Below, piece after piece: positions 217-39,547 of a stretch of 64,000 nucleotides of DNA (its first letter is position 1; each line of letters starts with the position of its first letter). Origin of the DNA: Pullulanibacillus sp. KACC 23026 (lineage in GTDB: Bacteria; Bacillota; Bacilli; Bacillales; Sporolactobacillaceae). The translations under genes were made by a program, and so were the position numbers. The stretch spans positions 2,790,001 to 2,854,000 of the forward strand of contig NZ_CP119107.1 in assembly GCF_029094525.1 (NCBI RefSeq), read 5' to 3'. Under the pieces are notes generated by a model that worked only from the letters and a program-made list of their open reading frames with translations, had not been told where the DNA came from and ran no database searches.

Positions 217-3342
<3,126 letters not shown>

Positions 3343-3577: not shown

Positions 3578-4000
3578 TTAAATAACCCCTTTTTTTAGCA
3601 AAATGTTTCCATACAGAGCGGTTTCTCCAGTTTGAATAACAGCGTATGTTGCTTTTGTTCTTTCATAGAAGGCAAATCGTTCAATATATTCGATTTTAAA
3701 TGGCTCACCACTTTTCTTTAAAATGTTTTGATACTCATTCCAAATGTCTGGCTTTGCATGATCGCCCGGTACTACTTGCATGAGTCCCACTTGCGTTTTA
3801 GAATAACAATCTAACGGGAATAATTTCATAATGGATTCAAGAAGTCCCGGAATTCTTAGACCATCAGCGCGAATAACTCTAGAATTTAAAGAAGATCCGG
3901 GAAAATTAGCATCTGCTAAAACGACTTCATCACCATGGCCCATCTCCATAAGGACTTTTATCATCTCTGGAGATAAATTTTTAGGGATACTTTTAAGCAA
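3578..4000 (-). CDS. fucU: L-fucose/L-galactose mutarotase (FucU/RbsD family)
   Basis: FucU-type proteins interconvert the anomers of L-fucose, and related enzymes those of D-ribose. The sequence carries MGHGDEVVLADANFP, VIRADGL, RFAFYERT and the ending YGNILLKKG, which match E. coli FucU as I recall it better than RbsD. The longest frame begins at 4018. A TTG at 4000 lies seven bases after GGGGG and gives a product starting MLKSIPKNLSPEM with 140 residues, the usual FucU length, so I chose it. It lies between LacZ and the divergent LacI gene, next to a LacI-type palindrome. L-fucose is 6-deoxy-L-galactose, so a role in the neighbouring L-galactose route is reasonable. Confidence 0.88.
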   Translation of the reverse strand: MLKSIPKNLSPEMIKVLMEMGHGDEVVLADANFPGSSLNSRVIRADGLRIPGLLESIMKLFPLDCYSKTQVGLMQVVPGDHAKPDIWNEYQNILKKSGEPFKIEYIERFAFYERTKATYAVIQTGETALYGNILLKKGVI

Positions 4001-4041
4001 TTCCATTCCCCCTTTCACCCTAAGACGTTAAGTTATTTTTA

Positions 4042-4057
4042 TGATATCGATAACATT
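4042..4057. promoter_or_regulatory. LacI-type operator, fucU/lacZ side
   Basis: TGATATCGATAACATT is one of three near-identical palindromes (consensus GTTATCGATAACA) that flank the genes of this locus. It sits 42 bases upstream of the chosen fucU start. Confidence 0.7.
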
Positions 4058-4155
4058 AATGTATCTGAAAACACACCCCTCGTCAATCGTTGAAGACAGA
4101 AAATTATGTATGTTAGTCATTTTATTAGTAGCTACTTAACAACTTTGATTGTTTT

Positions 4156-4171
4156 TGTTACCGATAACATT
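4156..4171. promoter_or_regulatory. LacI-type operator, regulator side
   Basis: TGTTACCGATAACATT is the second copy of the palindrome, 76 bases upstream of the LacI start. It implies autoregulation of the divergent promoter region. Confidence 0.7.
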
Positions 4172-4246
4172 AAATTCTTGCCAAAGTAATATCGTTAAAC
4201 TAGAATAATAGTGGTAAAACTTAAGGGTGTCATAAGGAGTTGGACG

Positions 4247-5260
4247 ATGGTTACAATTTATGATATAGCCAAAAAGGCAAACGTGTCTGCCATGACCGTT
4301 TCAAGGGTCATTAATAAATCTGGAAAAATTAGTAAAGAAACTAGAAAAAAAGTTGAATCAGTCATTAAAGAACTAAATTATATCCCTAATAACTCAGCTA
4401 GAAACTTAATCACTAAGAAAACAAAAATCCTATCCCTAATGATTACAGATATCTCTAACCCTTTTTTCACAAGTGTTGCAAGGGGGGCAGAAGATAAAGC
4501 CATGCAAATGGGTTACCAGTTACTATTGTGCAATAGTGACGAGAACTTTGAGAAAGAATCTAAATATATGGATATGTTAATATCTACTGGTACAGATGGG
4601 GTCTTGATTGCTCCAGCAAACGAATCTTCAAAGAAAAATATACAAAAATTGACTAAACATGCGATTCCATTTGTATTACTGGACCGAAACATCCAAGGTT
4701 TGGAATGTGATCAGGTTCTAAGTGATAATTCAGCAACAACTAGGACTTTAATTGAGCATTTAATTGATCAAGGACATAAAAGGATCGCCATCGTTAACGG
4801 ACCTTTAGATGTCTCAACTGCACGTGAAAGACATCAAGCTTATATAGATACATTAAGGATTCACGGCTTAACCATTGACGAGAATCTCATTAAAGAAAGC
4901 CAATTCCGTGAAAGTAATGTGTCAGATACCATTCAACAGCTGCTTAATTTATCACCGGATCGGCGGCCTACTGCCATATTTGCAACGAATAACTTTATTG
5001 GTTTTAATACACTTAAATTTCTTTTCAAATTAGGTGTTAAAGTTCCAGAGGAGGTTGCAGTTGTCTCTTATGATGTCATTCCCAATTATTCCGAAAATGA
5101 ATCGATCTTAACAGTTGCCGAACAGCCTGCCTATAACTTTGGATATATGGGGACACAATTATTAATCGAACGAATAGAGGGAACAGCACCCGAAAAGCCA
5201 CGAAAAATTATACTGCCAGCTGAAATACATTTCAGAGCTTCTTCGCTTTTTACCAAATAA
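4247..5260 (+). CDS. LacI-family transcriptional regulator
   Basis: It has an N-terminal helix-turn-helix (VTIYDIAKKANVSAMTVSRV) with the LacI hinge (NNSARNLITKKT), followed by a periplasmic-binding-protein-like ligand domain containing LMITDISNPFF and QPAYNFGYMG. The longest frame begins at 4211, but AAGGAG precedes the ATG at 4247 with seven bases between and gives the canonical MVTIYDIA start and 337 residues. It is divergent from fucU-lacZ and convergent with the L-galactose operon. Three matching palindromes at 4042, 4156 and 8434 indicate that it controls both sides. The inducer is not visible in the sequence; L-galactose or a pathway intermediate is my inference. Confidence 0.93.
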   Translation: MVTIYDIAKKANVSAMTVSRVINKSGKISKETRKKVESVIKELNYIPNNSARNLITKKTKILSLMITDISNPFFTSVARGAEDKAMQMGYQLLLCNSDENFEKESKYMDMLISTGTDGVLIAPANESSKKNIQKLTKHAIPFVLLDRNIQGLECDQVLSDNSATTRTLIEHLIDQGHKRIAIVNGPLDVSTARERHQAYIDTLRIHGLTIDENLIKESQFRESNVSDTIQQLLNLSPDRRPTAIFATNNFIGFNTLKFLFKLGVKVPEEVAVVSYDVIPNYSENESILTVAEQPAYNFGYMGTQLLIERIEGTAPEKPRKIILPAEIHFRASSLFTK

Positions 5261-5305
5261 AAAGCCTTAAAACACTGCTTTAATAAAACACCTTTCTCAA
5301 TTAAA

Positions 5306-5343
5306 ATCTGATTACCTTCAGATTGAATGGAAGGTTTTTTTTA
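5306..5343 (+). terminator. Intrinsic terminator after the LacI gene
   Basis: The stem ACCTT/AAGGT, overlapped by AATCTG/CAGATT, is followed by a run of eight T. It lies between the convergent LacI and aldo/keto reductase genes. Confidence 0.6.
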
Positions 5344-5372
5344 TGAATTTATCTAAACTTTAAAGGTCAGTT

Positions 5373-6320
5373 TTAATTACTTCTATATATATCTGAATAT
5401 TCAAGTTTACCACTTGGCCAGGTTTTGTTATGAATTGGTTTTAAAATATCGAGAACCATTTCTAATAGTTCCTCATCAATGGTTTCATCTGCCCATTTTA
5501 CATTTTTTGTGATATTTTCAACGCTTGCCGAACTTACCAAGGTGGTTGGTATATTTGTATTTTGCACAGAATATTGAATTGCCAGCTTCGATAAATCGGC
5601 CCCTATTTCCTCACAAAACGCCGCTGCTTTTTTACATTGATCTCGAATCTCTTGATCGGCAGGATGCCATTCGGCAATTGGTCTTGAGCTTAAAAGCCCC
5701 ATTGATAACGGAGAAGCGTTAATGATTCCTATATTTTGGCTTTCAAGTAAAGGAAGGCGTGATAAAAGAGAATTATCGTTTAGAGAATAATGACAATAAG
5801 ACAGGATGACATCCAATTCGGCTTTTTCCAAGATTTTATCAAAGATCATCAATGGAAGACCTGAGACGCCAATGAAACGTGTTTTTCCTTGTTTTTTAAG
5901 TTCTTGTAAAGCAGGAATTCCGTCCTCCATTATTTGATCAAATGATCCAAATTCAATGTCATGAAGAAGAAGGATATCGACATAATCCGTCTGTAAACGT
6001 GAAAGACTCTCTTCTATGCTAGACAAAATTCGTTTTTTTGAGAAGTCGAATTCCTTCTCACCGTAACGGCCAGCTTTTGTAGATAAATAGAAGGTGTCTC
6101 TTGGAATGTCTTTGATCGCTTTTCCTAGAACTGTTTCAGCTTTGGTTAATCCATAGTAAGGCGATACATCAATAAGGTTAATCCCTTGATCTATTGCTGT
6201 GTGAACGGTTTTAATACCTTCACTCTCATCGATCTCCCGAAAAACAGATCCAAGTGAAGAAGCGCCAAAACTAAGAGACGATACATTTAATCCCGTTTTT
6301 CCCAGCTTTCGATAATCCAT
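5373..6320 (-). CDS. L-galactose 1-dehydrogenase (aldo/keto reductase family)
   Basis: The 315-residue aldo/keto reductase has the catalytic tetrad Asp51, Tyr55 or 56, Lys82 and His120. Its motifs (SFGASSLGSVF, CHYSLNDNSLL, DIEFGSFDQI, EWHPA) match those of plant L-galactose dehydrogenase as I recall them, much more closely than generic aldo/keto reductases. That enzyme oxidises L-galactose to L-galactonolactone with NAD+; bacterial relatives also oxidise L-fucose. It is the last gene of a three-gene operon after a lactonase and a zinc dehydrogenase, which supports L-galactose. An alternative name is D-threo-aldose/L-fucose dehydrogenase. Confidence 0.85.
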   Translation of the reverse strand: MDYRKLGKTGLNVSSLSFGASSLGSVFREIDESEGIKTVHTAIDQGINLIDVSPYYGLTKAETVLGKAIKDIPRDTFYLSTKAGRYGEKEFDFSKKRILSSIEESLSRLQTDYVDILLLHDIEFGSFDQIMEDGIPALQELKKQGKTRFIGVSGLPLMIFDKILEKAELDVILSYCHYSLNDNSLLSRLPLLESQNIGIINASPLSMGLLSSRPIAEWHPADQEIRDQCKKAAAFCEEIGADLSKLAIQYSVQNTNIPTTLVSSASVENITKNVKWADETIDEELLEMVLDILKPIHNKTWPSGKLEYSDIYRSN

Positions 6321-6354
6321 TTAAAAGGCCTCCCTTTAATTAAACGTTCTTTTT

Positions 6355-7191
6355 TTATAACTTATCTAGTTGATAAAACTCTATTGCGTTAGCTCCAAAA
6401 ATTCGTTCTATCTCAACAGAAGTTATATTTCTTGGAAGTGTATCCTTCAGCAATTGATAAACTTGGTTATAACTGGCAGACAGTAAACAAACCGGCCAAT
6501 CACTTCCATACATGACACGATTTGTTCCAAATTCCTCTATGATGTGATGAACATAAGGGATAAACTCTTCTATTCGCCAGTTATTGTGATTAGCTTCTGT
6601 CACCATCCCTGATAATTTACAGTAGATATTTGGATGTTTTGCAATTTCGGAAATCTGTCGTTTCCATGGTTCAAGCTCACCTTTTGCAATGTTTGGTTTT
6701 GCTATATGATCAATGACTCCTCGGATAGACACTTGATTTAGTAATTTTAAAAGAACAGGAAGTTGACTGGCTTTTACTAGCAAATCGATAGGAAGATCTA
6801 ATTCCTCTAAATAGGCAAACGCTTCCAAATAATGCGGTTCTAAAATTCTACTTTCATCTGGCATATCTTGTATCATAATACGGATCCCGATGAATTTCGG
6901 ATGTTCTCTAAACTTATTAAGCTGTTCCTTATAGGTTGGATCCTCTAAATCAACCCATCCTACGACGCCAGCGATTGAAGTAGAATGTGTACTCAAATCC
7001 AAAATGAATTCAGTTTCTTCAATTGTTGGAGCTGCTTGAACAACAATGGTTTTATCTATATTATTTTCTTCCAGGTGCTTCTTTAAATCGTTTACCATAA
7101 AATCTCGATATAGGACAGGGATATCTGGGGTAATCCAGCCATAATCAGCTCTGTTAATCTTCCAATAATGCTGGTGAGCATCAATTCGCAT
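6355..7191 (-). CDS. Sugar lactonase, amidohydrolase superfamily (COG3618 type)
   Basis: The 278-residue metal-type amidohydrolase has the N-terminal motif MRIDAHQHYW, a mid-protein RGVIDHIAKP and YGSDWPVC near residue 230. Members of this group open L-fucono-, L-galactono- or L-rhamnonolactones. Its gene lies 34 bases before the aldo/keto reductase, so it would hydrolyse the lactone that enzyme makes, giving L-galactonate (or L-fuconate). Start and length fit the family. It is cytoplasmic, with no signal peptide. The substrate is inferred from context; the enzyme class is clear. Confidence 0.85.
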   Translation of the reverse strand: MRIDAHQHYWKINRADYGWITPDIPVLYRDFMVNDLKKHLEENNIDKTIVVQAAPTIEETEFILDLSTHSTSIAGVVGWVDLEDPTYKEQLNKFREHPKFIGIRIMIQDMPDESRILEPHYLEAFAYLEELDLPIDLLVKASQLPVLLKLLNQVSIRGVIDHIAKPNIAKGELEPWKRQISEIAKHPNIYCKLSGMVTEANHNNWRIEEFIPYVHHIIEEFGTNRVMYGSDWPVCLLSASYNQVYQLLKDTLPRNITSVEIERIFGANAIEFYQLDKL

Positions 7192-7241
7192 TGGAAAACT
7201 CCTTTCCTCTATTTCGATAATTCTAGCAGATAAGGCTCATA

Positions 7242-8255
7242 TCACATTTGAACGATGGCCTTCACCACACCTGTCTCGGGCTTCATCCACTCATCAAAAT
7301 GTTCAATCATTTCCTCAAAACTTGAACGATGGGTGATGTATGAACCCACATCAACTTTGCCTCTCTTAATCGAATTGATGACATGAACAAAGTCTTCTTT
7401 AGTCGCATTCCGGCTTCCCATTAAGGTAAGTTCTTTGGCATGAAAATCGGGATCAAAAAACATAATATTAGATCGGACTAATCCAACATAAATTAACTTT
7501 CCTCCATTTGCCGGATACTGAAAAGCTCCTTCCATGCTTTTTCGATTTCCTGTCGCGTCAAACACAATGGTTGGCAGATCCCCTCCCGTTATTTCTTGGA
7601 TCGAATCAATAGGCGACTCTAAAGCATTTACGATAAAATCTACATTTGCCCAACGTTGACAAAAACCTAATCGCTCTTGATTTATATCCATTGCAATAAC
7701 CTTTGCCCCCTCTTGTTGGGCAAAAGCCATCACACCCAATCCAATAGGGCCTGCACCTATAACAAGGGCATATTCACCTTTTTGAATGCCTGCTCTTCTC
7801 ACGGCATGAGCGCCGATACTTAAGGGTTCGACTACGGTTGATTCATCGAGCGACAACCCATCAGTTTTGATGAGGTTCTCATGAGGGACAGAAATCTTTT
7901 CGGTCATTCCTCCATCAATATGTACACCTAATACCTTCATTTGCGCACAGCAATTGGTTTTGCCTCGCCGACATGCCACGCATTCACCGCATGCTAAATA
8001 AGGAATTACCGTAACCTGATCTCCTTCTTTTAATCCTGCGTCGTTTTCACCTACCCATTCAATTACACCGGCCAATTCATGCCCTAAAACTCTTGGATAG
8101 ACAAAAAAAGGCTGATTGCCTTTATAAGCGTGATAATCAGTACCGCAAATACCAATTTGTTTTATGGCAACGATCGCTTCTCCTTGTTTTTGGGTTGGAT
8201 GCTCCGCTATGACCGGTTTAAACTCGTTTGGTTGTTCACAAACGATGGTTTTCAA
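7242..8255 (-). CDS. Zinc alcohol dehydrogenase, probable L-galactonate 5-dehydrogenase
   Basis: This 337-residue medium-chain dehydrogenase has the catalytic zinc motif GICGTDYH and GHELAG, a structural-zinc cluster CGECVACRRGKTNCC, and an NAD-binding GAGPIGLG. It resembles E. coli LgoD/YjjN, which oxidises L-galactonate to D-tagaturonate, and other polyol dehydrogenases. It is the first gene of the operon with the lactonase and L-galactose dehydrogenase, with a LacI-type palindrome about 180 bases upstream. Threonine or sorbitol dehydrogenase activity cannot be excluded from sequence, but the neighbours favour L-galactonate. D-tagaturonate would then need UxaB-type reduction, which is not in this window. 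Confidence 0.8.
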   Translation of the reverse strand: MKTIVCEQPNEFKPVIAEHPTQKQGEAIVAIKQIGICGTDYHAYKGNQPFFVYPRVLGHELAGVIEWVGENDAGLKEGDQVTVIPYLACGECVACRRGKTNCCAQMKVLGVHIDGGMTEKISVPHENLIKTDGLSLDESTVVEPLSIGAHAVRRAGIQKGEYALVIGAGPIGLGVMAFAQQEGAKVIAMDINQERLGFCQRWANVDFIVNALESPIDSIQEITGGDLPTIVFDATGNRKSMEGAFQYPANGGKLIYVGLVRSNIMFFDPDFHAKELTLMGSRNATKEDFVHVINSIKRGKVDVGSYITHRSSFEEMIEHFDEWMKPETGVVKAIVQM

Positions 8256-8746
8256 TAATAATCTCCCCTTCTATATAAAGACTTATTTTCATTAGAGGTT
8301 CTGTTCAAGACCGTTGTTGATAATAGGAGGAAACAGGCCCGCTTTCCGTGAGAGTAGAGCCTCTTTCGTCTAATTCTAAAGCAATTAGAAAATCAACATT
8401 CAATATTAACAGAGTCTAATTAAAATAGGGTTAAGTTATCGATAACACTAATTTAACATCGCGTGTGACAACCGTCAACAAATTATTAATCATCCTCTCT
8501 CCTAGGGACCTTAAAAATTTTACGTTAAACAAAATCACAATTAAAAATCGTTTTTATACTTACTATTCATAATTGGTTAACAAACTAGATGGATTTTATA
8601 AAATTTAACAATAGCTATATTAATTGATCTTTCTCTATTTAAGTTCGGATTCAAAATTTTTGTTTGTTTATTAAATTGATAAACGCCCTCACTTGAAAAG
8701 GGACGGTTCTCCAGTGAAAGGAAAACCATCCCTTTGTTTTGAGGTT
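8256..8746. other. Intergenic region upstream of the L-galactose operon
   Basis: This gap holds the operator at 8434 and the first part of a hairpin repeat from 8697. The part nearest the operon is likely promoter and leader; I could not fix the -10 and -35 boxes. The rest is AT-rich and carries no gene I can support. Confidence 0.5.
8434..8449. promoter_or_regulatory. LacI-type operator of the L-galactose operon
   Basis: AGTTATCGATAACACT is the best palindrome of the three. It lies 180 bases upstream of the zinc dehydrogenase start and links that operon to the LacI gene 4 kb away. Confidence 0.72.
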
Positions 8747-8790
8747 TCATTCGGTTTTCGAATGAGACGCGAGAACCGTCCCCCTGTTTC
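8697..8790. repeat. REP-like repeat pair (GGGACGGTT / GAACCGTCCCC)
   Basis: A first hairpin, GGGACGGTT to AACCATCCC (8699-8732), is followed by an inverted copy, GAGACGCGAGAACCGTCCCC (8764-8783). The same GAACCGTCCCC core with GTTTC-like flanks recurs at 11313, 33243 and 44031. The second copy forms the 3' end of the TetR reading frame. Confidence 0.75.
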
Positions 8791-9373
8791 CTGAAAAGAT
8801 CGGCAGTAGGACTTCATCCACTAACTGGATAAGGTAGTCTTTTGTTACAGTGCCACCGCTTATGATGTTCACAGAACGTAATAGATCAAAGGGTAAACTC
8901 ATTTGCATCGAAGTGAATTCATGATTGATTTCTCCACGTTCTTTGGCAAACCCTTCTATCTTCTTCATTATTTCAATATTACTTTCACGTGCCCTAATTG
9001 ACCACTGTTTAAATTTTTCATTTTTCTTGCTTAACTCCAACAACATGGCACTTAGAACTTCTGGACTAGCGGCGTCAAAAAATTGTTGGTAAACTTCTAC
9101 AACACCTAGTAAGTCCAAACGCAGGCTGCCCTTTTCTTGCACTAAATCAATCATATTACCACCAAGAGCTTGTGTGAATTTATAACGAACCAATGCGTGC
9201 AATAGATCAACAGGTGTTTCATAGCGTCGATAGATGACTGTCCGACTGGTTTCAGCTAGTTTGGCTACATTTTGGAAGGTCATGCTCTCATAACCTGATT
9301 CATGAATAATTTTATCTGCCGCCTCTAATATCGCTACTTCTAATTCCTCACCGCGTTTTCGTTCATTTCCCAT
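8747..9373 (-). CDS. TetR-family repressor of the adjacent efflux gene
   Basis: This 208-residue protein has an N-terminal TetR helix-turn-helix (YESMTFQNVAKLAETSRTVIYRRY) and a C-terminal helical ligand domain. It is divergent from a multidrug transporter, and two matching palindromes lie between them, the classic arrangement for local control. The last residues (GNRGTVLASHSKTE) are encoded by a GAACCGTCCCC repeat read in reverse, so the natural C-terminus has probably been replaced. The helix-turn-helix and most of the ligand domain are intact, so it may still work. Confidence 0.9.
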   Translation of the reverse strand: MGNERKRGEELEVAILEAADKIIHESGYESMTFQNVAKLAETSRTVIYRRYETPVDLLHALVRYKFTQALGGNMIDLVQEKGSLRLDLLGVVEVYQQFFDAASPEVLSAMLLELSKKNEKFKQWSIRARESNIEIMKKIEGFAKERGEINHEFTSMQMSLPFDLLRSVNIISGGTVTKDYLIQLVDEVLLPIFSGNRGTVLASHSKTE

Positions 9374-9419
9374 GGTATACCTCCCGCTTAGTTACTACTC
9401 ATTATTTTACCATTAATTT

Positions 9420-9438
9420 AAGATACGCATTGTACTTT
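9420..9438. promoter_or_regulatory. TetR operator copy 1
   Basis: AAGATACGCATTGTACTTT is an imperfect copy of the 9469 palindrome with the same 8-3-8 layout. It is nearest the TetR start. Confidence 0.65.
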
Positions 9439-9468
9439 ATATAATTCAGGTGTATACTTCTTAATATC

Positions 9469-9487
9469 AAGATACAGATTGTATCTT
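9469..9487. promoter_or_regulatory. TetR operator copy 2
   Basis: AAGATACAGATTGTATCTT is a perfect inverted repeat with 8-base arms and a 3-base centre. It lies 21 bases before the transporter start, where binding would block its transcription. Confidence 0.75.
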
Positions 9488-9508
9488 AGAAGAAGAGGAG
9501 TGTAAGTT

Positions 9509-10924
9509 ATGACTAAGAATAAGAATGAGAAATTACCGAAAGAACTGATCAACATAGCGCTTGTGCTTGTACTTGGGGCAATTGCTCCCATGCTAGATAC
9601 AACGATGGTGAATATAGCGGTTAATAAATTTGGTACTGACTTTCATACGTCACTTGATGTCATTCAGTGGGTCATTACGGGTTATGTTTTAGCAACCGGA
9701 ATTGCCGTCCCGTTTTCTGGATGGCTCATCAATCGATTTGATGGAAAACACATTTATTTAGCGGCAGAATTCCTATTTTTAGTAAGTTCTATTCTTTCAG
9801 GGATTTCTTGGAACATCGATTCTCTTATTATTTTCCGTATTATACAAGGTTTTAGCGCAGGTCTTATCATTCCATTACTGACCACATTGTTAGTTCAAAC
9901 GGCCGGACAAGAAAATATGGGGAAATTGATGTCGATCGTTGGATTGCCGATTATTCTTGGTCCCATACTTGGACCTGTAATTGGTGGAGGAATTGTCGAA
10001 TACACTTCATGGCGCTGGATCTTTTTTATCAATATTCCAATCGGACTAATTGCCTTATTTTTTATATACAAAAAACTACCAAATTTTGCTGCATCTAATA
10101 AAGGTGCCAAGCTTGATTGGCTAGGTGTCATTTTGTTAGGGGGGCTATCCGCCAGTTATATATACGGGATTACCCAAGCCGCATCAGGTTCTGGATTCAC
10201 TAATTCTAAAACAATCGGATTCATTCTATTGGGTCTTCTTCTAACGATTGTTTATGTGATTTACGCTTTATTAAAATCCAAGAAAGTCATTCTTCCTTTG
10301 AGTTTGTTTAAGTATAAGAGTTTTACAGCTTCCATTGTCGCCTTATTCTTAGCGGGAATTGGGACGAATGGACCTATGCTGCTTTTGCCTCTATTCTTTC
10401 AAAATATTAGACACGATTCCGTCATTCTTGCAGGTCTCTCGCTCATCCCACAAGGTCTTGGTATGCTGGTTGCTCGACCAATGATTGGTAAACTAACAGA
10501 CAAAATAGGAGCAAAGCTCGTGGTGGTCGTCGCGATCGTTATTACTCTCATCGGGACTGTTCCTTTTCTATGGTTTTCACAGAGTGCTGACTATTGGCTA
10601 ATCGGAGCGGTCTTATTTATTCGCGGAATTGGCGTAGGAGGCATTACGATTCCAGTTATGACGGATTCATACACAGGTCTTTCTAGGAGTCAAATACCGC
10701 AAGCTAGTATTGCGACGCGCATTATACAAAATATAGGCGGTGCTTTTGGTTCAGCGCTATTGGCCACGGTTGTTGCCAATCAAATGATGAATGTGGCTCC
10801 AAACCTAACCCATTTAACATCCGCCTATCAAACTGCCTTTTTGGTTGCCAATATTTTAACAGTCGTTATGTTCATTCCCGCCCTATTCTTAACAAATAAA
10901 GCAAAAAGGAAGGCAAAGGGTTGA
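9509..10924 (+). CDS. MFS multidrug efflux transporter, DHA2 (EmrB/QacA) type
   Basis: This 471-residue hydrophobic membrane protein has about 14 predicted helices by eye. Helix 1 carries the DHA2 signature LDTTMVNIAV, followed by WVITGYVLA, RIIQGFSAG and the antiporter motif GLPIILGPILGPVIGG, which indicates proton-coupled drug export. GAGGAG precedes the ATG. It is divergent from a TetR gene with two operators between. The substrate cannot be read from sequence. The gene appears complete and is followed by a short GC-rich hairpin. Confidence 0.92.
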   Translation: MTKNKNEKLPKELINIALVLVLGAIAPMLDTTMVNIAVNKFGTDFHTSLDVIQWVITGYVLATGIAVPFSGWLINRFDGKHIYLAAEFLFLVSSILSGISWNIDSLIIFRIIQGFSAGLIIPLLTTLLVQTAGQENMGKLMSIVGLPIILGPILGPVIGGGIVEYTSWRWIFFINIPIGLIALFFIYKKLPNFAASNKGAKLDWLGVILLGGLSASYIYGITQAASGSGFTNSKTIGFILLGLLLTIVYVIYALLKSKKVILPLSLFKYKSFTASIVALFLAGIGTNGPMLLLPLFFQNIRHDSVILAGLSLIPQGLGMLVARPMIGKLTDKIGAKLVVVVAIVITLIGTVPFLWFSQSADYWLIGAVLFIRGIGVGGITIPVMTDSYTGLSRSQIPQASIATRIIQNIGGAFGSALLATVVANQMMNVAPNLTHLTSAYQTAFLVANILTVVMFIPALFLTNKAKRKAKG

Positions 10925-13468: not shown

Positions 13469-14059
13469 TCAAGTGTATTTGATGCTTCTTGCTTTTGCGT
13501 TTTTTAAATAGGAACTATCCATTCTCTTTTTAAAGACCCACATCACTATTTCCCTGCGCCAATTTGACATTGGTGATTCGCTTTCAAATGTCATGTATTC
13601 GACCCACTCAGACATCTCTTGAACAGTCCCGCTTCCAACGTTGCCGCAAATATACGGTTCCGCGCCTAATAACTCGCACAGAAGCATAAATTCATGCGTT
13701 CCGAAGTGATTGTTCTCAACGACACCGCCCCAGTGCGTATTAACCATCTTTTTTCGCGTCTCTCTTGGTCCAATGCCATCCTTCCAGTGATATTCATCCG
13801 CAAAGCACCCACCTGGCCAACGGAGGACAGGCGCCTTAATATTCTTCAAAACAGTGAGAACGTCCTTTCGAATTCCATACGTGTTAGGAATCGGAGAATC
13901 TTCCCCTACCCAAATTCCTTCATAGATACACCTCCCGAGGTGCTCTGAGAAATGACCATATATGTTTTTATTAACAACAATAGACTGACTCAATCCCCCC
14001 CAAACCCAATCAATTTTTATTAAAAACTTGCTTATAAGGATAAGCGCTTTCCCAGACAT
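13469..14059 (-). pseudogene. GH51 alpha-L-arabinofuranosidase, 5' remnant
   Basis: The first 165 residues or so match the start of GH51 arabinofuranosidases ([58 protein letters not shown]). The similarity stops at that point and an unrelated tail of about 27 residues follows, so the acid/base and nucleophile glutamates are absent. Intact family members are near 500 residues. It starts five bases after the GH43 stop and was once the second gene of that operon. A complete GH51 gene at 21919 probably covers the lost function. Confidence 0.85.
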
Positions 14060-16151: not shown

Positions 16152-16559
16152 CTGCCGCTCAAAAGATTCTTTTGTGTAGTTTCGGTAATTTGTGCCGCCT
16201 GACCACCCAATCTTTAGTTCATTCGTCTTTCAAAGAACCCCCTTATTAGAAATCACACTCATTTTCGCGGCAAACGACGCTTAAGCGGATGCAGCCTTCT
16301 TCTGAAAGGCAGACTTTGTCCACTTTTTTCTGCGATCGCCCTGCGTTGTAGCATTCCTTAGCGTTACCACCTCAAGAGACCAGAATGGATCCATGTGTGA
16401 GGGCCCCTTAAGTTCAACCAACTGCCTCATAAAAAATAGAGATTCTTAACGTAAAAAAACATGAGGAAGAAAAGACGTCACCATGCCTTTTCTCCCTCAC
16501 TTTACTCATTACGAACGGTCTCAAAATGCGAAAACGAATGCATGAAACACTTTAAGTTA
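16152..16559. other. Gap between convergent regulator genes
   Basis: No supported gene. CAAAAG/CTTTTG just after paralog A may be a weak terminator, and a strong terminator for the opposite strand lies at 16452-16500. The middle is more GC-rich than its surroundings, but I recognise nothing in it. Confidence 0.5.
16452..16500 (-). terminator. Terminator of the arabinan importer operon
   Basis: On the minus strand, GAGGGAGAAAAG pairs with CTTTTCTTCCTC (mismatches inside), followed by ATG and seven T. It lies 60 bases after the paralog B stop. Confidence 0.7.
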
Positions 16560-17504
16560 TTAATCAGCAACAGGCTCTGCTTCTCTTCCACTCGTGACTT
16601 CCGTCTTATAATAAAGACGGAACAAAATATCCTGGTCGTAGTTCCCAAATCCTTTCCCGAACAGCGTAACCCCCCCAACGTGTACTTCTTCATCATGAAC
16701 CGCTATACGAAATGTCCATTGTTTTTCACGTATTTTGATATCCTCGATGGTCACATCAGACAACCAGTTCCCATCCATATAGGTCCCTTCGTTAGTCACT
16801 CTTAAACGCTTTAAGAGTCCATACTGGTTTACAATTCCCGGCCACCAAGAAGGGGTATATTTGCCTCTATTGTCCCCAAAATCTCCCGGACTCGTCCATT
16901 TCCCCAATTCAATATCATTTAAGTAGAACGTGATATCGGATGGCCAATTATCATTTGTGAACGGTGCTTCCGAAGAAATCTCCATTGAAATTTCTAATTC
17001 TTCCGGAATGTATTTGGAATGCAAGAAATTAGGTACCTTGTATTCGATATACCCTTTACCAAACCAAAGAATTTTCGCGTTAACCCTCTCTTGATCTAAG
17101 AAATAACGAGGTTCATCGAATTCACCGATAATTTTTTCAGGTGTAGCAAGACCACATGTAGGCTCGACCGAAAAGTCCGTGTAATGCCCGACTGACAAGC
17201 TAGTTTCTTGATAGTCTCTGGATGCCAGATATTTTTGTGGAAAAAGCACTTCGATTTTGTCAACACCTAATTCGCAAATTTTTTGTACTCCGGCTTTTCC
17301 AGGAACCATTTTAGTTCGAATAATCCCCCCTCTTTCAAGTTTCTTGATATGCATCGTCATAATAGCCGTACTTAAACCAACCGACTCTGCTAGTGCGGTG
17401 ATATTCATAGATTGTTTAGCTAAGATTTGAATGATCTGAATCCTCACTTTACTTGACAGCGCTTCAAATATTGGAAGTGATTCATTAGTCACATCTACTT
17501 TCAT
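16560..17504 (-). CDS. ArsR-type regulator with large C-terminal sensor domain, paralog B
   Basis: The 314 residues have the same build as paralog A: a winged helix (SSKVRIQIIQILAKQSMNITALAESVGLS) followed by the conserved sensor region (CGLATPEKIIGEFDEPRYF, SWWPGIVNQYGLL, GGVTLFGKGFGNY). A short acidic tail (TSGREAEPVAD) is unique to this copy. It is the last gene of the operon SBP, two permeases, YesL, regulator, in line with feedback control of arabino-oligosaccharide uptake. The near-identical sensor parts suggest the same ligand; the diverged recognition helices (SSAIMTKHVKKL versus STAIMTMHIKKL) suggest partly different targets. Confidence 0.82.
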   Translation of the reverse strand: MKVDVTNESLPIFEALSSKVRIQIIQILAKQSMNITALAESVGLSTAIMTMHIKKLERGGIIRTKMVPGKAGVQKICELGVDKIEVLFPQKYLASRDYQETSLSVGHYTDFSVEPTCGLATPEKIIGEFDEPRYFLDQERVNAKILWFGKGYIEYKVPNFLHSKYIPEELEISMEISSEAPFTNDNWPSDITFYLNDIELGKWTSPGDFGDNRGKYTPSWWPGIVNQYGLLKRLRVTNEGTYMDGNWLSDVTIEDIKIREKQWTFRIAVHDEEVHVGGVTLFGKGFGNYDQDILFRLYYKTEVTSGREAEPVAD

Positions 17505-17658
17505 CCTCTGTTGCCCCCCTCCATCCTAAACTTAACAGTTACCTCTCCATTTTGCATGATAAGTGCTTTTCACAAAGAATCTTTTTAGTCTAGGCTGTTT
17601 TTACAAATTTTAATGGTTCTGACTATCCGAATGAGATGGCTCTCCAAACAGTCCCTCA

Positions 17659-18318
17659 TTATTTAACATACGTCGCTTCAATTTGCCTGATCAACTTGCG
17701 TAAGACAAAGAACGTAATCATTGAAAACAAAGGCAATCCCCAAAATATCGCGATGTTAACAAAATGTTTATAAAATAAGAAAATAGCGATGACTAACAAG
17801 ATAATCAGGATCGATTTTACCGGACGGTTGAATAATAAATAGAAAGAAAATCGGTGTATGTCCTTTACCTTCATGACAAATTTGCTATTTAAAATAAGCG
17901 CATAGACAAAACTGACGACCACCAAGACAAACACAAGGTATAAAAGAGGAAGTAAAAAGGTGTCTTTATGTGAGACGTTTAGGAAATAGAGATCGCAACA
18001 CAAGATCAGCAGGACAATAAAGTAAGGCAACCATAACTTAATAGAAGATCTAAATCCCTTACGATAATGATGAAAATAAGTCCTCATCACTTTACATTCC
18101 AAGTCATTCAAACTATCAAAAACCGTTTGGAACATAGCCCCCATTGTAGGTCCTATTAAAAGGAAACCGATTAGATACAAGACACCTGTTAGAGCATTTA
18201 ACGGAACACTTAAGAATAGACATACAAGAAGAAGACTTGTGATCAACGTGCAAATCCCTATCAAAAATAGATTCCAAACGATTTGAGTTAGACTAATAAA
18301 TGGATTTTTAGTATACAT
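17659..18318 (-). CDS. YesL family (DUF624) membrane protein
   Basis: This 219-residue protein has about five to six hydrophobic segments and the typical opening (NPFISLTQIVWNLFLIGICTL) with GPTMGAMFQTVF. YesL-type proteins are of unknown function but nearly always sit beside carbohydrate ABC importers in Bacilli. It lies 24 bases after the permease gene and before the ArsR-type regulator, so it is probably co-transcribed. A second, distant family member lies at 33293 beside the other importer. Confidence 0.85.
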   Translation of the reverse strand: MYTKNPFISLTQIVWNLFLIGICTLITSLLLVCLFLSVPLNALTGVLYLIGFLLIGPTMGAMFQTVFDSLNDLECKVMRTYFHHYRKGFRSSIKLWLPYFIVLLILCCDLYFLNVSHKDTFLLPLLYLVFVLVVVSFVYALILNSKFVMKVKDIHRFSFYLLFNRPVKSILIILLVIAIFLFYKHFVNIAIFWGLPLFSMITFFVLRKLIRQIEATYVK

Positions 18319-26663: not shown

Positions 26664-26895
26664 TATTATGTTAATAATAATGAATCTTTTGTCAATTAGC
26701 AAGTTACTTTTTAGCGACTTATCTCCTATTTTTTTAGGTACATTGGACCTAAATAGGAGTCAAAGAAGTCCCATCAACAGTTGGCTCCTTAAGCGCTCTC
26801 TCTTGTTGCTCAGATAAACACTGTAAAAAATCCCAGATATGAGGATATGAAAAATTTCCGTTCGCAAATTGCCAAGAACCAACGTGTGTAGAGTT

Positions 26896-27394
26896 CTTTT
26901 TGTGTGATGCGGGCTCCAATACACAAAATCTTGGCGCAGCGGAGCCCCATTGTGTGCGATGGGGGCTCCAATACACAAAATCACGGCGTGGCGGAGCCCC
27001 ATTGTGTGTGATGGGAGCTCCAATACACACAATCTTAGCTTGGCGGGACCTCTTTTTGTATGATGCGGGCTCCAATACACACAATCTTAGCTTGGCGGGG
27101 CCCCATTGTGTGTGATGGGAGCTCCAATACACAAAATCTTAGCTTGGCGGGAGCCCATTGTGTGCGATGGGAGCTCCAATACACAAAATCTTAGCTTGGC
27201 GGGAGCCCATTGTGTGTGATGTGGGCTCCATTACACAAAATCTTGGCGGGGCGGGACCTCTTTTTGTGTGATGGGAGCTCTAATACACAAAATCTTGGCG
27301 CAGCGGAGCCCCATTGTGTGCGATGGGGGCTCCAATACACAAAATCTTGGCGCGGCGGGGCCTCTTTTTGTGTGATGCGGGCTCCAATACACGT
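26896..27394. repeat. 52-bp tandem repeat array, nine full units
   Basis: Aligned on GGGCTC/GAGCTC, units begin at 26911, 26963, 27015, 27067, 27119, 27171, 27223, 27275 and 27327, each exactly 52 bases apart, with a partial tenth from 27379. Each unit contains TTGTGTGATGGGAGCTCC followed by AATACACAA, an inverted repeat (TTGTGT/ACACAA) around GGAGCTCC. The second half alternates between a GCCCCATTGTG form and an ACCTCTTTTTG form. There is no spacer, so it is not a CRISPR. ACGTGTG occurs just outside both ends (26882, 27391). Since 52 is not divisible by three, open frames through it are artefacts. Confidence 0.95.
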
Positions 27395-38437: not shown

Positions 38438-39547
38438 TTAGAAAATTTGTTGTTGCTCCTCTTGAACAGACGCCTTTTCTTTCAACTTATCCAAGCTATC
38501 CCAAATCCCTAAAATATACATACATCCGAGTCCCCTATCGTATAAACCATAGCCTGGGCGCGCGACTTCCTCCCATATCATTCGTCCATGGTCCGGTCGA
38601 ATATAACCGTTAAAATGAGTATCATGCAAGGCTTTAAGAATTTCATAAAGATCCAATGAACCGTCACAACTGCGATGTGAGGCTTCGACAAAATCACCAT
38701 TTTCATAGACTTTTACGTTTCGAATATGGGCAAAAGCTATTCTGTTAATACTTGAAAAGTACCTCATCATCTCGGGAATATTATTATTGATATTTGCTCC
38801 TAATGCTCCCGAACATAATGTGAGACAATTGGAGGGGCTATTAACCAAATTGACAATACGCTCAAGATTTTGCCGATTCGTTACAATTCGTGGCAGCCCA
38901 AAAACCGTCCATGGCGGATCATCAGGATGAATGGCCATTTTAATATCTGTTTCCTCACAAACCGGAATAATTTGTTCTAAGAAGTACTTTAAGTGATCAA
39001 ACAGATCTTCTTCAGTTACATTCTCATATTTTTTGAATAGTTGTTTGAGTTCTTTTAACCGATCTTGTTCCCAGCCTGGCAATTCATATCCATTTGAATC
39101 CTCTTTCATCTTTTCAACTAATTTCATCGGGGCAATATTCTCAAATTTCGTCTTCTCATAAGCAAGAACAGTTGAACCATCGTTCATGCGCTTTGCAAGG
39201 TCTGAACGGGTCCAATCAAACACAGGCATAAAGTTATAACAAATAACTCTTACACCGACACTCGCCAAATTTCTAATGGTATCTTTATAGTTTTCAATGT
39301 ACCGGTCACGCGTACTTAATCCTAATTTTATGTCTTCATGAACATTGACGCTTTCTACAACCTCAAATTTTAAGCCATGTGCTTCAATCTCTTCTTTAAG
39401 AGCGACAATCTTTTCAAGCGGCCAAACCTCTCCAACCGGAACGTCATATAAAGCTCCGACAATCCCATCCATTCCAGGAATTTGTCTAATAAATTCTAGA
39501 GGAATAGTATCGTCCTTACTCCCGAACCATCTAAAACTCAGCTTCAC
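38438..39547 (-). CDS. uxuA: D-mannonate dehydratase
   Basis: The 369-residue UxuA TIM barrel dehydrates D-mannonate to 2-keto-3-deoxy-D-gluconate in D-glucuronate catabolism. Family hallmarks are the start MKLSFRWFGSKDD, MAIHPDDPP, LCSGALGAN and YIRPDHGRMIWEE, containing the metal-binding His, Cys, Asp and His residues. It follows a GntR regulator by 66 bases. In this window it is the only core enzyme of the hexuronate route, placed to use glucuronate released by GH115. UxaC, UxuB, KdgK and KdgA must be elsewhere. Confidence 0.95.
   Translation of the reverse strand: MKLSFRWFGSKDDTIPLEFIRQIPGMDGIVGALYDVPVGEVWPLEKIVALKEEIEAHGLKFEVVESVNVHEDIKLGLSTRDRYIENYKDTIRNLASVGVRVICYNFMPVFDWTRSDLAKRMNDGSTVLAYEKTKFENIAPMKLVEKMKEDSNGYELPGWEQDRLKELKQLFKKYENVTEEDLFDHLKYFLEQIIPVCEETDIKMAIHPDDPPWTVFGLPRIVTNRQNLERIVNLVNSPSNCLTLCSGALGANINNNIPEMMRYFSSINRIAFAHIRNVKVYENGDFVEASHRSCDGSLDLYEILKALHDTHFNGYIRPDHGRMIWEEVARPGYGLYDRGLGCMYILGIWDSLDKLKEKASVQEEQQQIF

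Follow-up and report, generated by a model that had tools for sequence, protein, structure and literature searches.

A probable combined L-fucose/L-galactose island with an L-fucose-type LacI regulator in Pullulanibacillus

Introduction

L-Galactose is a minor component of the plant cell wall, found in arabinoxylan side chains and rhamnogalacturonan II, and it can stand in for L-fucose as the terminal residue of plant side chains. To our knowledge, its breakdown has been demonstrated in a few bacteria only, those known to us being Gram-negative, and we know of no experimental demonstration in a Gram-positive of a free-sugar route of the build described here. We analysed a 64,000-nucleotide stretch of Pullulanibacillus sp. 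KACC 23026 (the window; positions 2790001–2854000 of the 4.80 Mb single-contig genome, labelled G000 among the genomes compared), in which a sequence-only reading had proposed a complete oxidative L-galactose route under one LacI regulator. The five genes concerned—for a FucU-type mutarotase, LacI, an aldo/keto reductase (AKR), a COG3618 lactonase and a zinc dehydrogenase—lie where that reading had put them; its gene observation is confirmed, and its pathway interpretation is partly supported. We propose that the five genes probably belong to a combined L-fucose/L-galactose island, in which the front-end steps and the branch for L-galactonate are supplied by the LacI regulon.

Several described systems resemble this locus. 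Bacteroides (Phocaeicola) vulgatus BVU_0219-0222 (cited in PMC12632266) clusters an AKR, a COG3618 lactonase and a zinc-type L-galactonate dehydrogenase that lead to D-tagaturonate, as predicted here; the comparison is by gene content. The window differs in having a dehydrogenase of the Escherichia coli LgoD type and in adding FucU and an L-fucose-type LacI. The dual L-glucose/L-galactose lgu system of Luteolibacter sp. LG18 uses the same AKR clade, an NAD dehydrogenase producing a 5-keto acid and UxaB/UxaA-type steps, and its enzyme LguA clusters with plant L-galactose dehydrogenase (L-GalDH) and BVU_0219 (PMC12632266). Its uxaB/uxaA-like genes lie within the cluster, whereas those of G000 are 1.7 Mb away, and its regulator is annotated as a helix-turn-helix-type activator (Btr-like) with no L-fucose module described, whereas G000 has a LacI and an L-fucose module.

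A precedent for a dual island comes from the Halomonas FucR loci (PMC5507952), where L-fucose diketo-hydrolase genes and lgoD/uxaA/uxaB are co-localised and probably co-regulated. Entry in Halomonas is as the acid, via a TRAP transporter; in G000, by contrast, the free sugar would be converted to the acid by the AKR and lactonase, with uxaB/uxaA located elsewhere in the genome. E. coli LgoD and the window zinc dehydrogenase have GICGTD, GHE and structural-zinc cysteine motifs in common, but the E. coli lgo locus differs from the window in encoding a galactonate symporter, LgoT, and in lacking an AKR and lactonase for the first steps. Finally, the non-phosphorylating L-fucose route 3 (PMC11199699) matches in gene content a module that we find immediately left of the window, sharing with it a dehydratase, a short-chain dehydrogenase/reductase (SDR) and a fumarylacetoacetate hydrolase (FAH)-type hydrolase. 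The G000 dehydratase is shorter than that of route 3 (365 aa, enolase-family) and by best match not of the ~441-residue L-fuconate dehydratase type, and the first step in G000 may be shared with the AKR.

Results

The AKR (5373–6320, minus strand) retains the plant L-galactose dehydrogenase motifs noticed in the sequence-only reading: 82 of the 99 columns invariant in five PDB L-GalDHs are conserved, as are 36 of the 45 invariant L-GalDH residues that are absent from general AKRs. Identity to the five solved enzymes is 48–54% (303–330 bits), the next PDB family scoring 117 bits and other AKRs sharing 24–30% identity, and the catalytic tetrad Asp51/Tyr56/Lys82/His120 aligns with all five chains. 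A tree of 26 clade members and seven other AKRs places the protein inside the L-GalDH clade (support 100/100); distant AKRs (L027–L037, 24–34%) served only as outgroup. A lead for its substrate is the preference of LguA, a studied relative whose kcat/Km on L-galactose is ~40 times that on L-glucose and which is inactive on L-fucose (PMC12632266).

The zinc dehydrogenase (7242–8255, minus strand) merits the label LgoD-like, being 43% identical to E. coli LgoD over 335 residues with no gaps; against other E. coli K-12 enzymes the values are 34% (RspB) and 26–28% (YdjJ, GatD, Tdh and IdnD). Its 211 bits on NCBIfam PRK10083 fall below the cut-off of 376, but as that model is named just 'Zn-dependent oxidoreductase', the score bears on the model and not directly on LgoD function. 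Bacteroidota dehydrogenases encoded beside similar AKRs (L022, L023 and L025) are only 32–35% identical to the window enzyme, which is thus of the E. coli and not the Bacteroides type. Zinc dehydrogenase, lactonase (6355–7191, minus strand) and AKR genes run in one direction in that order, with gaps of 34 and 50 bp, and appear to form a single operon. From NCBIfam and PDB 4dlf (153 bits), the lactonase is assigned to the L-fucono-/L-galactono-lactonase type of the COG3618/Amidohydro_2 family. The AKR and zinc dehydrogenase are still best read as converting L-galactose, through L-galactonate, to D-tagaturonate, an inference that comparative genomics supports well.

The remaining two genes are divergent. 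fucU (3578–4006, minus strand) encodes a 142-aa FucU-type L-fucose/L-galactose mutarotase, which passes the NCBIfam L-fucose mutarotase model (PRK15420, NF011949; 150.4 bits, cut-off 141) and has homologues in the PDB. The listed open reading frame (ORF; 3578–4018) begins at GTG 4018, but ATG 4006, preceded by AAAGGGGG, which we read as a ribosome-binding site, is the likely start. lacI (4247–5260, plus strand), listed from GTG 4211, likely starts at ATG 4247. Three operators of the GTTATCGATAACA type, each with one mismatch to TGTTATCGATAACA, flank lacI, fucU and the zinc-dehydrogenase operon, supporting the earlier proposal of control by one LacI. The first (4042–4055, TGATATCGATAACA) lies 36 bp upstream of the fucU start and directly downstream of the fucU promoter, the second (4156–4169, TGTTACCGATAACA) is upstream of lacI and the third (8434–8447, AGTTATCGATAACA; TGTTATCGATAACT on the minus strand) is upstream of the zinc dehydrogenase–lactonase–AKR operon. 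Three such sites in 4.4 kb have a Poisson p of ~1e-6, taking the 22 other strand matches as genome background.

Promoter-like elements on the minus strand adjoin two of these sites: TTGACG-N17-TACATT for fucU (4058–4086) and TTGACG-17-TAAATT, with TG before the second hexamer, for the operon (8450–8478). Both have the same layout of TTGACG, 17 nt, TAnATT, 2 nt and operator. Directly after the promoter is where a repressor would act, suggesting repression as the mode of control. Scanning the whole genome for further regulon members returned 28 strand matches, no more than a reversed control (also 28); most of the other matches are intragenic, and the sole pathway-relevant one is a variant, TGTTAACGTTAACA, at the hexuronate operon described below. 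No riboswitch or other known RNA was found in the 180-nt zinc-dehydrogenase leader.

Immediately left of window position 1 lies a second gene module, of the L-fucose diketo-hydrolase type (G000:C1:2775509–2789706, within a 20-kb stretch, L071), with every gene in the orientation of fucU and lacZ (minus strand). It encodes an AraC regulator with a Cache domain, an ABC importer (two permeases and a 544-aa solute-binding protein, which has no Pfam hit and is named from position and resemblance to other such genes), a GH95 glycoside hydrolase, the 365-aa enolase-superfamily sugar-acid dehydratase, two SDRs, an FAH-type hydrolase close to 2,4-didehydro-3-deoxy-L-rhamnonate hydrolase and a GH29 alpha-L-fucosidase. 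The 258-aa SDR and the FAH hydrolase are 66–72% and 59–70% identical, respectively, to those of L-fucose operons elsewhere. Window and module together hold all the families of route 3: FucU, AKR or SDR, and lactonase in the window; dehydratase, two SDRs (candidates for the 2-keto-3-deoxy-L-fuconate dehydrogenase step) and FAH hydrolase in the module. Neither SDR has a decisive L-fucose dehydrogenase match in the PDB, and no L-fucose isomerase (FucI) is encoded in the G000 genome.

The sequence-only reading had argued against L-fucose from the absence of a fuconate dehydratase. With the dehydratase/SDR/FAH module just outside the window, that absence was an artefact of the window edge and the argument was wrong. 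The same reading had held that a fuconate dehydratase linked within the same regulon would speak against L-galactose; the linkage of a dehydratase-containing module is real, but the common regulon is not borne out: a search of the adjacent 20 kb found no operator with three or fewer mismatches. In two other genomes, G184 (L164, L165) and G209 (L166, L167), a UxaA-type L-fucose operon coexists with a separate orthologue (79–81%) of the enolase-family dehydratase, adjoining a lactonase or FAH hydrolase gene.

LacI orthologues with the same recognition helix are 47–76% identical to the window protein, and most adjoin L-fucose operons. Six such L-fucose loci (50–76%) comprise four with UxaA-like/SDR/SDR/FAH/FucU genes (G209, G336, G385 and G361) and two with FucI/kinase/FucA/FucU genes (G145 and G117). 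A further orthologue (53%) heads a run in G083 of FucA, kinase, FucI, zinc dehydrogenase, FucU, lactonase, AKR and GH29, and G346 has a similar gene set. The helix S(A/P)MTVSRVIN is identical across all aligned orthologues, and operator matches (0–3 mismatches) occur in the L-fucose operon promoters of G209, G336, G184 and G361; the orthologue, the operator or both are found at L-fucose operons of G361, G184, G209, G336, G385, G145 and G117, within the same order. By locus, operator and helix, the window LacI is assigned to an L-fucose-regulator (FucR-like) lineage. This lineage, together with the adjoining L-fucose module, goes against the exclusive use of L-galactose originally envisaged.

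The AKR is absent from 25 other genomes of the same family, and is present in 12 of 397 genomes of the order and in five further class genomes of a phylum sample. We compared the neighbourhoods of 16 orthologues with the window. In 14 of the 17 loci a zinc dehydrogenase gene lies beside the AKR (truncated in G385, which has an intact copy accompanied by genes for a TRAP transporter and a UxaA-like protein); about half have the lactonase and many a GH95. The AKR of G511 follows uxaB and uxaA, and the orthologous zinc dehydrogenase of G104 is found in a uxaB–uxaA cluster (L174). Five AKR genomes of one family also keep the FucI pathway.

An exit from D-tagaturonate is encoded in all 17 AKR genomes: UxaB (~490–540 aa) in nine, the D-tagaturonate 3-epimerase UxaE in eight and both in none. 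Across the order sample, UxaB occurs in 83 and UxaE in 17 of the 397 genomes, with no genome on both lists; one or the other is present in 12/12 AKR genomes against 88/385 others (Fisher p 4e-8). In G000, the exit is UxaB, encoded in a hexuronate operon uxaC–transporter–LacI–uxaB–uxaA–kdgA–kdgK (1085517–1094503; uxaB/uxaA at G000:C1:1089757–1092725). It lies 1.7 Mb away with its own LacI and the operator variant TGTTAACGTTAACA, which does not speak for membership in the window LacI regulon. The suggestion that hexuronate genes might share the window operator is therefore not upheld, nor is the description of the route as complete under one regulator: the genes from sugar to central intermediate are not united in one regulon in G000, and the five-gene set contains no transporter.

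Discussion

A dual island is the simplest account of a LacI and FucU that come from an L-fucose system alongside an AKR and zinc dehydrogenase that point to L-galactose, and we consider it probable. GH29 and GH95 enzymes would release the sugar and the ABC transporter import it. FucU would interconvert the anomers of L-galactose (and of L-fucose), the AKR would oxidise L-galactose at C1, probably with some activity on L-fucose, and the lactonase would open the resulting lactone. The zinc dehydrogenase may then oxidise L-galactonate at C5 to D-tagaturonate, which would leave through the separate uxaB–uxaA–kdgA–kdgK hexuronate operon, while L-fucose would be processed by the enolase-family dehydratase, two SDRs and FAH hydrolase of the left module. 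LacI is predicted to repress fucU, lacI and the zinc dehydrogenase–lactonase–AKR operon, with an L-galacto-configured sugar or a derivative probably relieving repression.

Several observations weigh against this account. L-Galactose and L-fucose differ at C6 only, and sequence does not separate the preferred substrate. The best and only NCBIfam family of the lactonase is L-fucono-1,5-lactonase (NF052480; 231 bits, below the cut-off of 400, with orthologues at 223–244 bits). In G361 (L060), the AKR and lactonase genes close an L-fucose operon, and no orthologous zinc dehydrogenase gene adjoins them. On the L-fucose side, the best families of the left-hand dehydratase are talarate/galactarate and arabinonate dehydratases, below cut-off, and known L-fuconate dehydratases match it partially and more weakly, so that an L-fuconate dehydratase function rests on context. 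Only six genera are represented among the 12 order-sample genomes with an AKR, and as UxaB and UxaE also serve galacturonate, part of their association with the AKR may stem from a lifestyle based on plant polysaccharides.

The alternative that survives best, though we judge it unlikely, is a dedicated L-galactose pathway, in which LacI senses L-galactose, FucU, AKR, lactonase and zinc dehydrogenase act on that sugar only and the L-fucose module is run separately by AraC. The neighbouring AraC gene and the lack of an operator (up to three mismatches) in the left 20 kb allow such separate control, one of the two SDRs of the module could be the L-fucose dehydrogenase, and LguA has no activity on L-fucose. 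In G083 and G346, moreover, FucI/kinase/FucA genes stand beside the AKR–zinc dehydrogenase set, which is therefore unneeded for L-fucose there. Against this, the LacI and operator type are those found at L-fucose operons, to which FucU also belongs elsewhere, and the left module contains neither a lactonase nor a mutarotase of its own, nor the ~270-aa SDR of other L-fucose operons.

We regard as improbable the converse, that the island serves L-fucose only. The AKR would be an L-fucose dehydrogenase, the lactonase would open L-fuconolactone, the left module would complete the route and the zinc dehydrogenase would have a side activity or act on another acid. Consistent with this are the LacI lineage, FucU, the best family of the lactonase, GH29, the dehydratase/SDR/FAH module and the complete G361 L-fucose operon that carries AKR and lactonase. 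Yet known L-fucose routes have no step requiring a zinc dehydrogenase, an LgoD-like enzyme adjoins the AKR in most of the genomes compared, it is linked to uxaB–uxaA in G104, as the AKR is in G511, and the FucI pathway is kept alongside the AKR in five genomes of one family. Least probable is another substrate (L-glucose, L-gulose, D-arabinose or a methylated or sulfated L-galacto sugar), which draws on the use of L-glucose and L-gluconate by LguA/LguD (PMC12632266) and on two sulfatases further left in the region, but is countered by the ~40-fold preference of LguA for L-galactose, by the absence of any 4-epimerase seen in the cluster and by the distance of the sulfatases (>20 kb) from the LacI regulon.

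The surroundings bear on the source of the sugar. A GH78 rhamnosidase and the two sulfatases are encoded in L132 (G000:C1:2750001–2770000) at 4264–7176, 8447–9835 and 16526–17908; in G184, a gene with a sulfatase-like start adjoins the orthologous dehydratase, making a sulfated L-galacto sugar possible. A GH2 beta-galactosidase (217–3330, minus strand; NCBIfam NF052611, 1490 bits), co-directional with fucU and the L-fucose module, is a possible island member, LacI control not being implied. The sequence-only reading had linked the island to pectin, which the analysis does not support. The larger window hydrolases that were tested (GH2, GH43, GH51 and GH115), together with uxuA, fit glucuronoarabinoxylan or arabinan at least as well, and no pectinase was found among the subset of window ORFs tested. 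Release of L-galactose from corn arabinoxylan by a GH95 enzyme has been described (PMC4491172). We considered the reported Thr/His switch of GH95 (Thr370 in the L-galactosidase BACOVA_03438) as a guide to specificity and did not use it: the island GH95 has Thr, but so does the alpha-1,2-fucosidase 7kmq, and the position is not decisive for specificity (PMC10063614).

Some further features of the region can be recorded. An ORF at 13469–14059 (196 aa), corresponding to the N-terminal third of a GH51-type arabinofuranosidase and adjoining an intact GH43 gene, is probably a truncated gene. uxuA (mannonate dehydratase) is present in two copies, at window 38438–39547 and G000:C1:3757496–3758554. Intergenic GAACCGTCCCC repeats occur at window 8699–8783, where they form an inverted pair, 11324, 33254 and 44041 (five against 0.4 expected); they resemble REP-type elements. 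A 52-bp unit is repeated in tandem at window 26895–27392 (9.5 copies), and low-complexity ORFs of similar look lie upstream of the hexuronate operon (L131, 1141–1723).

Returning to the combined L-fucose/L-galactose island, a bolder reading can be put forward. One L-fucose-type LacI repressor would govern a promiscuous, shared oxidative front end for two sugars only one oxygen apart; the routes would split no earlier than the aldonate, L-fuconate passing to the dehydratase/SDR/FAH enzymes and L-galactonate to LgoD and hexuronate metabolism; and the exit would be UxaB or UxaE according to lineage. We hold this bolder reading to be somewhat short of an even chance. Besides correcting an error that arose from where the window ended, the analysis yields a testable rule for the group, namely an L-GalDH-clade AKR with an LgoD-like dehydrogenase and either UxaB or UxaE, and the comparison suggests how the use of L-fucose and L-galactose may be wired together.

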